A DNA stretch of 64,000 bases from Xylophilus sp. GOD-11R (GTDB taxonomy: Bacteria; Pseudomonadota; Gammaproteobacteria; Burkholderiales; Burkholderiaceae_C). Positions 12,592-49,284 of the stretch are shown here, piece by piece. Within the stretch, counting starts at the first letter, position 1. Each line of letters starts with the position of its first letter. The notes beneath the pieces are model-generated. The model did not search any database. It saw only the letters and a program-made list of their open reading frames with translations, and was not told the origin of the DNA. Both the position numbers and the translations under genes were made by a program. The stretch covers positions 4,526,001 through 4,590,000 of the forward strand of contig NZ_CP137854.1 in NCBI RefSeq assembly GCF_033546935.1. The letters are read 5' to 3'.

Positions 12592-13521
12592 ATGACGATC
12601 GACTGGGACAACCTGCGCTTCTTCCTCGAAACAGCCCGCGCCGGCACGCTGGCGGCGGCCGCGCGGCGGCTGGAGGTGGACCACACCACCGTGTCGCGGC
12701 GCATCCAGGCCTTGGAAAAATCGCTCGGCCGGCCGCTTTTCGTGCGCAGCGCCACGGGCTTCGCGCCGACCGAAGCCGGGCGCGAGCTGCTGCCGCACGC
12801 CGAGGCCATGGAAGCTGCCAGCCGCGCGATCGACGCCGACCGCGCCGCGCACCGGCCGCCCGGCGAGTTGGCCGGCACCGTGCGTATCGGCACGACGGAA
12901 GGCTTCGGTGCGGCGGTGCTGGCGCCGCGTCTGGCGGCCTTCGGCGCCGCGCAGCCGAAGCTGCTGGTCGACCTGCTCGCCGTGCCGCGCACCGTCAACC
13001 TGGGGCGGCGCGAGGCCGACATCGTGGTTGGCCTGGAGCGCCCCGCGCGGGGCGAGGTGATCGCGGTGCGGCTCTGCGACTACGCGCTGCGCCTCTACGC
13101 GTGCGCCGACTATCTGCGCGCCCACGCCGCCATCGAGCGCACCGAAGACCTCGCCCAGCACCCCTTCGTCGGCTACATCGACGACCTGCTCTTCAGCCGC
13201 GAACTGCAATACCTGCGCGAGATGGGGCCGCCACGCCGCTTCGCGCTGCGCAGCACCAGCATCGTGGCGCAATGGCAGGCGGTGGCTGCCGGCGCAGGCC
13301 TGGGCGTGCTGCCCGTCTTTCTGGCCGGCGCGGATCCGAGGTTGCGCGAAGTGCTGCCCGGCCAGGCATCGCTCACGCGCACGTTCTGGATGTCGATGCC
13401 GGTCGAGAACAAGGGCCTGCCGCGCATGCAGGCGGTGTGGGAATTTCTCAAGCAGGTGGCGGCCGACAGCGGAGCCCTGCTGCGCGGGCCGGACGCGGCG
13501 GCCGCTACTTCGGGTGGCTGA
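12592..13521 (+). CDS. LysR-family regulator, divergent from mmsA operon
   Basis: A 309-residue LysR-type regulator. The N-terminal winged helix-turn-helix covers [42 protein letters not shown], with the 'DHTTVSRRI' recognition helix seen in a subgroup that also has short effector domains. The C-terminal substrate-binding domain follows, including [11 protein letters not shown]. The ATG at 12592 gives the normal family start; upstream extensions lie in the shared promoter. The divergent arrangement makes it the likely regulator of mmsA and the four genes behind it, with a valine-derived metabolite as possible inducer. Its 3' end overlaps hrcA (convergent) by 17 bases. Confidence 0.92.
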
Positions 13522-14509
13522 GCGCGTTGCCCAGCAGGCGCGAGGTGATGTCGACGATCTGGATCATGCGGTCGTAGGCCATGCGCGTCGGGCCGATCAC
13601 GCCGAGCGTGCCGACGACCTGGCCGTTGACCTCGTAGGGCGCGCTCACCACCGAGAGTTCTTCGATCGGCACCACCCGGCTTTCGCCGCCGATGTAGATG
13701 CGCACGCCCTCGGCCTGGCTCGACACTTCCAGCAGCCGCATCAGCTGCGTCTTCTGCTCGAACAGGTCGAATGCGCGGCGCAGCTGGCCCATGTCGCTGG
13801 AGAAATCGCTCACCGCGAGCAGGTTGCGCTCGCCCGAGATCACCACCTCGTCGGCTTCGGCCGAGGCATCGGAGCTGGCGTCGACCGCCGCCTGCATCAG
13901 GCTGGCGATTTCGTTCTGCAACGCCTGCACCTCGGACTTGATGCGCTCGCGCACCTGCTCGATGGCCAGGCCCGCGTAGTTCTGGTTGAGGAAGTTGGCG
14001 GCCTCCACCAGGCGCGGCTGGGCGATGTCGGCTTCGGTGACGACGACGCGGTTCTGCACGTCGCCGTCGGGCGAGACGATGATCACCAGGATGCGCTTGA
14101 CCGACAGGCGCAGAAATTCGATGTGCCGGAACACCGAGCTGCGGCGCGGCGCCATCACCACACCGACGAATTGCGACAGGTTCGACAGCACCTGCGCTGC
14201 GTTGGCGATGACCTTCTGCGGCTGGTCGCCGATGATCGCCGGCGGCTCGGTCATGGCCGGCCGCTCGGCGGTGAGCATGGTGTCGACGAAGAGACGGTAG
14301 CCGCGCGCGGTCGGAATGCGTCCGGCGGAGGTGTGGGGGCTGGCGATGAGGCCGAGCTCTTCGAGGTCGGCCATCACGTTGCGTACCGTGGCCGGGGAGA
14401 GCTCGATGCCGGCGGCCCGCGAAAGTGTGCGCGAACCCACCGGCTGACCGTCAGCGATGTACCGTTCCACCAGGGCTTTGAGCAGCAGCTTGGCACGGTC
14501 GTCGAGCAT
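13505..14509 (-). CDS. hrcA: Heat-inducible transcription repressor HrcA
   Basis: A 334-residue HrcA, full length. The N-terminal winged helix reads [23 protein letters not shown], then [40 protein letters not shown], the most conserved segment of the family. A GAF-like middle domain and C-terminal region follow ([40 protein letters not shown]). HrcA binds the CIRCE operator and is usually kept active by GroEL. An exact CIRCE sits upstream of rpoH at 48285-48311. I found no CIRCE in the 118-base gap between hrcA and the divergent nadK, so autoregulation through CIRCE is not supported here. Confidence 0.97.
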
Positions 14510-47495: not shown

Positions 47496-47555
47496 GTCCG
47501 GCTGCCCGGCTTTGTCGGGCCGCGAGTGCCAGGGGGCGTTCGGCGCCCGGCAGCC

Positions 47556-48114
47556 GGAACACGGTGCGCTCGATGGTCTGGCCGGCGGCGTCGACCTGCG
47601 TCGCGCCCTGGGCCGTGCTGGCGACGCTCTGCGCCACCAGCCCCTTGATCTCCCGCGCGGCCTCGACCGCCGCGTGGAGCGCCACGATGTTGGCCTGAAA
47701 GGCGATGCTGTCGATCATCCCGAGGTGTCGCCCACCCGGGCCACGTTAGCCCAGGCCCATGCCCACGTGGGCCTTGCCGGGAGTACACGACGACGCCACG
47801 CGCCTCGCCCGGCGGCAGGTCGGCCGTCAGTGCGGCACCTGCCTCGGCGACCCTGGCCCGCTCGGTCTGGAAGGCCTTCCAGGTGGCGAGCAATGCGGAG
47901 TCGGCACCGCCCAGCAAGCTGTTCTTCCATTTTTATTCCGGGTCTTGAAGGCGGCCTCCGTCGCCCGCATCTCCCGTTCTTGAGACACGTTTTCTGCACG
48001 TCGACCGAGAAGGTGTCGAGGCAATGGCAAGGCCTGGATGCGGAACAGCGCAGCGAGCAGCAGGAGCAGCAGGAGCGTCAGGTACGCGGCTCGGCCGCCG
48101 CAAAGCGTAACCAC
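47556..48114 (-). pseudogene. Decayed methyl-accepting chemotaxis protein
   Basis: Pieces of one chemoreceptor lie on the minus strand in different frames. First is a membrane helix (LTLLLLLLLAALFRIQAL) and RATEAAFKT. Then, after a frameshift and an in-frame stop, WKNSLLGGADSALLATWKAFQ, a ligand-binding segment of Comamonadaceae-type receptors, ending near GEARGVV. After a further frameshift comes the signalling segment IDSIAFQANIVALHAAVEAAR, which joins directly to EIKGLVAQSVAST and VDAAGQTIERTV. The HAMP region and the conserved hairpin tip (EQGRGFAVVAGEVR) are gone. No intact product can be made. Boundaries are approximate. Confidence 0.8.
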
Positions 48115-48284
48115 GGGCCGCGCCTGATCGACGAGTGACTTTTGTGCGACTGCGCTTGTCTGCCGAGTCGGAATTTTCCGCTCTTCCGCAAGCGTCTTTC
48201 CTACGGATGCGGCGCTCGCCCGCGCGCTGAATAAATCAACCCCCTGGCGCTATCCATTCGATAGGAAGGTGGGGAACTCGGGCC

Positions 48285-48311
48285 TTAGCACTCTCTCTAA
48301 CCGAGTGCTAA
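48285..48311. promoter_or_regulatory. CIRCE operator (HrcA site) upstream of rpoH
   Basis: TTAGCACTC (48285-48293), nine bases TCTCTAACC, then GAGTGCTAA (48303-48311). This is the exact CIRCE consensus, a perfect 9-base inverted repeat with the canonical spacer. It ends 31 bases before the chosen rpoH start. Confidence 0.93.
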
Positions 48312-48314
48312 TAT
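48285..48314 (+). promoter_or_regulatory. Candidate sigma-70 promoter of rpoH, embedded in CIRCE
   Basis: TTAGCA (48285-48290) as -35 and TAATAT (48309-48314) as -10 are 18 bases apart. The left CIRCE arm covers the -35 and the right arm enters the -10, so HrcA binding would block RNA polymerase. Start of transcription would fall near 48321. Confidence 0.5.
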
Positions 48315-48342
48315 GGTTCGCTATGAGGAAAGGATGCCTGGT

Positions 48343-49284
48343 ATGAACTACCCCGCTGGAGCTGCCACTGCCGTCGCCACCGCCAATCCGTGGTCGATGG
48401 TGCCGCCCCTGGGCAACCTCGACGCCTATATCTCGGCGGTCAACCGCCTGCCGCTACTCACCCTTGAGGAAGAGCAGCGTTTCGCCCGTGAGTTGCGCGA
48501 CGAGAACAAGGTCGAGTCCGCCGGTAAGTTGGTGCTCTCCCACTTGCGCCTGGTCGTGTCGATCTCGCGCCAATATCTCGGTTACGGCCTGCCGCACGGC
48601 GACCTGATCCAGGAAGGCAATGTCGGCCTGATGAAGGCCGTCAAGCGATTCGACCCCGAACAGGGCGTGCGGCTGGTGAGCTATGCCCTGTACTGGATCA
48701 AGGCCGAGATCCACGAATACATCCTGAAGAACTGGCGCATGGTGAAAGTGGCCACCACCAAGAGCCAGCGCAAGCTGTTCTTCAACCTGCGTTCGATGAA
48801 GCAGGCCTTCAAAGCCAACTCGGCGCTGGATGTGGAACTCGACACCCACCGCGACACCCTGAGCGCGAGCCAGGTGGAAACGGTGGCCGAGCGCCTGAAC
48901 GTGAAGCCCGAGGAAGTCACCGAAATGGAGATGCGTCTGGCCGGCGGCGACGTGCTGCTCGACCCGTCTCCGTCGGACGACGGCGAGCAGGCTTTCGGCC
49001 CGATCGCCTACCTGGCCGACGTGGCCCACGAGCCGACCGCCATGATCGAATCGCACCAGCGTGACGTGATGGCCACCGACGGCATCGCCACCGCGCTGGA
49101 GGCGCTGGACGACCGCAGCCGCCGCATCGTGGAAGAGCGCTGGCTCAAGGTGAACGACGACGGCTCGGGCGGCATGACGCTGCACGAACTCGCCGCCGAA
49201 TACCACGTGAGCGCCGAGCGCATCCGCCAGATCGAATCGGCCGCCATGAAGAAGATGAAGAAGGCGCTGGCCGAATACGCCTGA
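48343..49284 (+). CDS. rpoH: RNA polymerase sigma-32 factor
   Basis: A 313-residue heat-shock sigma factor. Region 2 has LVLSHLRLVVSISRQYLGYGLPHGDLIQEGNVGLMKAVKRFDPEQGVRLVSYALYWIKAEIHEYILKNWR. The RpoH box QRKLFFNLR is intact and separates it from housekeeping sigma factors. Region 4 ends in a helix-turn-helix (TLHELAAEYHVSAERIRQIESAAMKKMKKAL). I chose the ATG at 48343 because AAAGGA lies eight bases upstream; an ATG at 48313 lies in the CIRCE/-10 and is not credible. Regulation by HrcA is likely from the operator. Confidence 0.97.
   Translation: MNYPAGAATAVATANPWSMVPPLGNLDAYISAVNRLPLLTLEEEQRFARELRDENKVESAGKLVLSHLRLVVSISRQYLGYGLPHGDLIQEGNVGLMKAVKRFDPEQGVRLVSYALYWIKAEIHEYILKNWRMVKVATTKSQRKLFFNLRSMKQAFKANSALDVELDTHRDTLSASQVETVAERLNVKPEEVTEMEMRLAGGDVLLDPSPSDDGEQAFGPIAYLADVAHEPTAMIESHQRDVMATDGIATALEALDDRSRRIVEERWLKVNDDGSGGMTLHELAAEYHVSAERIRQIESAAMKKMKKALAEYA

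Follow-up and report, generated by a model that had tools for sequence, protein, structure and literature searches.

The rpoH gene of Xylophilus sp. GOD-11R, which encodes the heat-shock sigma factor sigma-32, lies in the 64,000-nucleotide stretch of DNA analysed here (the window) and is preceded by a perfect match to CIRCE, the operator pattern of the repressor HrcA (Table 1). The match, TTAGCACTC-TCTCTAACC-GAGTGCTAA, agrees with the HrcA/CIRCE pattern TTAGCACTC-N9-GAGTGCTAA at every arm position, and 31 nt separate its end from the likely rpoH start. This start is favoured because it is preceded by the Shine-Dalgarno sequence GAGGAAAGG; the earliest ATG in the reading frame (48313) was rejected, as it falls within a -10-like hexamer. 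The nearest named relatives of this rpoH (~80-84% identity) belong to the Comamonadaceae, e.g. Curvibacter, Variovorax, Diaphorobacter and Acidovorax, and three Acidovorax loci (L107, L109, L123) share the CIRCE/Shine-Dalgarno/rpoH layout of the window. Almost 800 bases lie between ftsY and rpoH (47496-48284), and three ORFs checked there gave no Pfam match.

Table 1. Features of the rpoH promoter region and of hrcA, in coordinates of the window
Feature	Position	Strand	Basis or remark
hrcA, repressor expected to read CIRCE	13505..14509	-	TIGR00331, 302 bits (cut-off 197)
Putative sigma-E-type -35, GGAACTC	48273..48279	+	GAAC at the same place in 42/79 named relatives with CIRCE
CIRCE, perfect HrcA operator pattern	48285..48311	+	9-bp arms, 9-nt loop; conserved before rpoH in relatives
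-35-like TTAGCA in the CIRCE left arm	48285..48290	+	Weak match, 4/6; 18 nt before the -10
Putative sigma-E-type -10, TCTAA	48296..48300	+	Inside the CIRCE loop, 16 nt past the -35
Putative extended -10, sigma-70-type, TGC + TAATAT	48306..48314	+	TAA closes the right arm; TAT follows directly after CIRCE
Shine-Dalgarno	48325..48333	+	Sequence; motif and spacing common to the Acidovorax relatives
rpoH (sigma-32)	48343..49284, likely start 48343	+	TIGR02392, 377 bits (cut-off 323); NF005143, 394 bits

The first-pass annotation had reported a perfect CIRCE before rpoH, and this observation is borne out: the operator is the single match in the window at up to 3 mismatches, and 100 dinucleotide shuffles of the window produced none, so that the number expected by chance is 0. 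At the same tolerance the 5.13-Mb genome (one contig) holds two matches, one ahead of rpoH and the other, with one mismatch, ahead of a groES gene with a 97-aa product, while a control pattern read backwards had no match in the whole genome. The same annotation had placed hrcA in the window and described it as devoid of a CIRCE of its own. Both statements are correct, since the gene, the single TIGR00331 match of the genome, scores above cut-off and the whole-genome scan at up to 3 mismatches found no operator there.

Spread of the operator and its tie to hrcA

CIRCE thus sits in the promoter region of a heat-shock gene, where it has been conserved. CIRCE (up to 2 mismatches) occurs somewhere in 117 of 120 genomes of the family, which represent 119 genera and include the source genome, and in all 105 genomes of good quality; exactly two such sites are present in 103 of the 120. 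Before rpoH, it was found in 108 of the 109 family genomes examined, the source genome included (98 and G110 read by sequence, 10 by coordinates only), at no more than 2 mismatches except for one site with 3 (G043). The sole miss, G019, offers only 41 nt before the contig end. Outside the 109 stand genomes whose rpoH DNA was left out (G029, G039, G045, G063, G093, G094, G113) and others without rpoH over the cut-off (G008, G083, G084, G104). Named relatives gave 79 of 80 with CIRCE before rpoH (up to 2 mismatches; perfect in 68), the miss (L150) having just 51 nt of upstream DNA, and since they probably overlap with the family sample the two counts are not additive. A layout peculiar to Xylophilus sp. 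GOD-11R was rejected, as these surveys show the CIRCE-rpoH arrangement widely.

All 11 family CIRCE loci inspected that are not at rpoH stand ahead of groES. The scan of relatives for CIRCE upstream of rpoH and groES, which the first-pass annotation had proposed as a check, is therefore positive for both genes. Because most genomes have exactly two sites and the others inspected are all at groES, rpoH looks like half of the HrcA regulon that a CIRCE search can find. The groES operator of the source genome (L002:1527-1554, minus strand) differs from that of rpoH in geometry: a promoter-like pair TTGAAC...TATGAT precedes it, and the -10-like hexamer TATGAT reaches as far as the first CIRCE base.

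Beyond the family, we searched for hrcA in order, class and phylum samples. The order sample comprises 80 genomes, 78 of them with rpoH over cut-off, and 77 loci from outside the family were read from 76 genomes. CIRCE precedes rpoH in 70 of these 77 when 4 mismatches are allowed (67 when only 2 are), and in plain locus tallies, for which Fisher tests ignore relatedness, it is present at 70/70 loci with hrcA and at 0/7 without. The seven loci lacking the operator (G137, G152, G158, G159, G162, G170, G183) are exactly those of the hrcA-less genomes, which are spread over six families. Two rpoH copies over cut-off were observed in G165 (L192, L196), both with CIRCE, and in G227 (L307, L345), only one with CIRCE.

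The class, which we take in the GTDB sense of Gammaproteobacteria, betas included, was sampled through 75 genomes, with 74 further families contributing one genome each beside the source genome. In its other orders CIRCE precedes rpoH at 46 of 69 loci: in tallies of the same kind, equally blind to relatedness, at 44/49 with hrcA (G256 being counted as positive from a partial match below cut-off at a contig edge) and at 2/20 without, each hrcA-less family being represented by one genome. The exceptions with hrcA but no operator are G208, G221, G231, G259 and one of the two G227 copies; those with the operator but no hrcA are G211 (1 mismatch) and G262 (3 mismatches). Class members in the phylum sample add nine hrcA-less genomes without CIRCE and one genome with both. 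The operator is thus mostly lost along with the repressor, hrcA-less loci retaining it in 0/7 cases in the order and 2/20 in the class, and this co-variation lends strong comparative support to the first-pass proposal that HrcA would gate rpoH and so connect the two heat-shock systems.

Outside the class, CIRCE preceded rpoH in 0 of the 15 loci read, which are the best-scoring rpoH among 45 such genomes, even though hrcA is present in 14 of the 15 genomes concerned. A phylum-wide origin of CIRCE at rpoH is accordingly unsupported. One of these loci (L376) matches CIRCE with 4 mismatches at a point 515 nt into the gene, and this match was left out of the count.

Promoter motifs overlapping the operator

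The first-pass annotation had described CIRCE as overlapping a candidate -35/-10 pair. The pair, TTAGCA (48285-48290) and TAATAT (48309-48314) with an 18-nt spacer, matches the consensus at 8 of 12 positions, which is modest, and it scores below the threshold of a promoter scan that listed no promoter. The overlap includes a conserved putative extended -10, TGCTAATAT, formed from the right arm of CIRCE, and the candidate pair is supported by this conservation, not by its consensus match. Among 214 aligned rpoH CIRCE sites, position 29, the last base of the -10 and outside CIRCE, is T in 212, and position 28 is A in 185. Constrained bases just past the operator imply that an extended -10 of the form TGC-TAAnAT straddles the right arm. 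Position 29 is T in none of the 7 oriented groES sites. The arms themselves are unequally constrained: base 2 of the left arm, third base of the -35-like hexamer, changes from A to G (giving TTGGCA) in 57/214 rpoH sites, whereas its mirror base in the right arm, T24, within the -10, changes to C in 1/214. This is the expectation if the right arm doubles as a -10.

The earlier description overlooked a second promoter-like element in this layout. GGAACTC-N16-TCTAA deviates by one -35 base from the sigma-E consensus, which consists of GGAACTT, a spacer of 16 nt and a TCTRA-type -10. The corresponding sigma factor, RpoE, is encoded in the genome (TIGR02939, 254 bits; cut-off 236). Within the family, the commonest place for the start of GGAAC(TT) is 12 nt ahead of CIRCE and that for TCNNA is loop position 11, where it is found in 40/97 rpoH sites vs 1/33 non-rpoH sites (0/33 when these are reversed) and in 0/7 oriented groES sites. 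In the remaining families of the order, the usual place of the -35 start is 16 or 17 nt ahead of CIRCE, with TCNNA at position 7, so that the sigma-E pair is displaced by ~4 nt at an unchanged spacer. TCNNA at position 7 is present in 47/70 other-family rpoH sites vs 8/33 and 5/33 in the controls (two orientations), a weaker contrast because CIRCE itself provides the TC there. The seven oriented groES sites have neither an extended -10 nor a sigma-E-type promoter of the rpoH kind.

The spacing between the two halves is itself non-random. They lie exactly 16 nt apart in 69/167 loci; when operators were dealt out among all loci in 2000 rounds, re-pairing gave a mean of 19.9 and a maximum of 32. 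The same procedure, again with 2000 rounds each, gave a maximum of 23 against 36/97 loci in the family and of 28 against 33/70 in the other families. A looser sigma-E pattern was detected in 56/98 family loci, 41/77 other-family loci and 35/49 hrcA-bearing class loci, for which base-shuffled maxima were 5, 6 and 4, respectively. Its frequency fell to 4/20 in hrcA-less class loci (shuffled maximum 3), and a similar pattern was seen in 4/9 further hrcA-less class loci of the phylum sample. Its occurrence in only part of the loci speaks against a general rule. In many hrcA-less lineages, both layers have accordingly disappeared or the promoter has shifted elsewhere.

A subgroup of the family (L060, with CIRCE at 1371; L223, L230, L237, L240, L244, L251, L252, L267, L269, L271 and others) lacks GAAC ahead of CIRCE. 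These loci carry GGAAC-N16/17-TCTGA instead, beginning 33-34 nt past the CIRCE start, with a -10 that overlaps or adjoins an rpoH start codon. As judged from these motifs, the sigma-E promoter may have shifted away from the operator here, and the transcript may start further downstream or be leaderless.

Natural losses of hrcA can separate the bases needed by the repressor from those needed by RNA polymerase. In the hrcA-less G152, CIRCE has decayed to 7 and 6 of 9 arm bases, and the sigma-E-type -35 and a TAAAAT -10 remain; its congener G195 has kept hrcA and a perfect CIRCE (L189, vs L202 of G152), which makes the pair a ready natural experiment. In two other hrcA-less genomes, G264 and G199, the left arm keeps 8 and 6 of 9 bases, respectively, and the right arm 4 and 3; in both, the TC of the sigma-E -10 belongs to the left arm. 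The trend is opposite in G262, also without hrcA (left 7, right 8 of 9), and in G226 both arms are gone (2 and 0 of 9).

A candidate repressor gate above sigma-32

The sequence of the operator, its position, its conservation, its co-loss with hrcA and the promoter motifs around it are established. Our main reading, to which we assign a probability of roughly 0.83, is that the rpoH CIRCE is a working HrcA operator placed over two overlapping promoters, both of which it would block until heat shock. One heat-shock system, HrcA, would then probably gate the other, sigma-32. We infer HrcA binding, promoter use and the heat signal as follows. At normal temperature, bound HrcA would exclude RNA polymerase from the basal sigma-70-type and the sigma-E-type promoters; as its footprint would span the sigma-E -10 together with the sigma-70 element from -35 to -10, the most straightforward view is that it would simply occlude both. 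HrcA generally loses activity at heat and is modulated by GroEL. Upon heat shock its activity would fall, or GroEL would be drawn off it, and the freed rpoH promoters would be transcribed by both holoenzymes, sigma-32 then driving the rest of the response. The other CIRCE target, groESL, would be derepressed in parallel. Transcription is predicted to start at ~48306 (sigma-E) and ~48320 (sigma-70), so that most or all of CIRCE would be absent from the mRNA.

HrcA might also bind the site to little effect. In E. coli, translation and turnover are the main controls on sigma-32, and under control of this style transcriptional release of rpoH could matter little: CIRCE would only trim basal mRNA or limit sigma-E-driven transcription, with rpoH output set at the translation and protein-turnover steps. 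E. coli K-12 indeed copes with a sigma-E-type promoter and no CIRCE (up to 3 mismatches) around rpoH, and the nine hrcA-less class genomes of the phylum sample likewise do without the operator. We nevertheless consider a minor role unlikely, as the site is near-unchanged wherever hrcA is kept in the order, and mostly so in the class, which points to a selected effect, albeit one whose size is unreadable from DNA. Far less probable is a function of the inverted repeat in RNA, as a hairpin in the leader that affects stability or senses heat: the repeat is able to pair, and CIRCE sits in the transcribed leaders of some groE operons, but here a predicted start ~7 nt past 48314 puts it outside the mRNA, its two arms differ in constraint in the way expected of a -10, and it mostly vanishes along with hrcA. 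That the site is a chance match or a functionless remnant is hardly credible, with 0 occurrences expected, presence in >100 genera of the family and a link to hrcA.

In E. coli K-12, GAACTT-N16-TCTGA starts 120 nt before the rpoH start codon; we take this sigma-E-type promoter to be P3. No CIRCE was found around that rpoH at up to 3 mismatches, and a profile search of an E. coli control genome returned no hrcA match. In Bordetella bronchiseptica, SigE transcribes rpoH (fam) in vitro, and HrcA is nowhere mentioned in the text of that report (PMC3490749). The E. coli and Bordetella promoters have the same -35 and -10 types and the same 16-nt spacer as the one described here, but in Xylophilus the -10 lies in a CIRCE loop, whereas E. 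coli K-12 rpoH has no CIRCE.

From the operator side, HrcA/CIRCE systems at groESL (PMC545781, PMC3989490, from the portions accessible) and at dnaK involve the same operator and repressor family, and groESL is a target here too. The rpoH case differs in that the target is a sigma factor gene and that CIRCE overlaps the promoter itself. A precedent is Geobacter sulfurreducens, in which a perfect CIRCE before rpoH, at -51, was predicted computationally (PMC545781, Table 8), together with operators at groESL and hrcA-grpE-dnaK-dnaJ. This is the single rpoH row of that table, Geobacter, classed there among the delta-proteobacteria, is from a distant group, and the accessible text describes no overlap with sigma-E or sigma-70 promoters. 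Neither PMC3989490 nor PMC10696704, as far as their accessible text goes, mentions an rpoH-associated CIRCE. Titles and abstract openings, with subscription literature outside the scope, yielded no other report of CIRCE at rpoH in Beta- or Gammaproteobacteria. A study by Permina and Gelfand (2003) reportedly covers, to go by its title, the same systems and groups, and may already list some of the sites. An operator at rpoH is therefore of an already known kind; the additions made here are its class-wide spread, its tie to the loss of hrcA and its overlap with two promoter-like elements.

We lean slightly towards a composite rpoH promoter as the ancestral state of the class, with one HrcA operator gating sigma-70 and sigma-E promoters; loss of HrcA would have removed the gate, and some lineages, such as E. 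coli, would have kept the sigma-E part. The presence of the sigma-E pattern in only 4/20 hrcA-less class loci weakens this view. If it is true, textbooks would describe a pared-down form of rpoH control, and gating by the repressor would be older and more widespread. On our main reading, rpoH would be, besides groESL, a main HrcA target across much of the Proteobacteria, and a cytoplasmic chaperone signal (HrcA/GroE) and an envelope signal (sigma-E) would be joined in one short promoter, which would reveal what sits above sigma-32 beyond the E. coli model.
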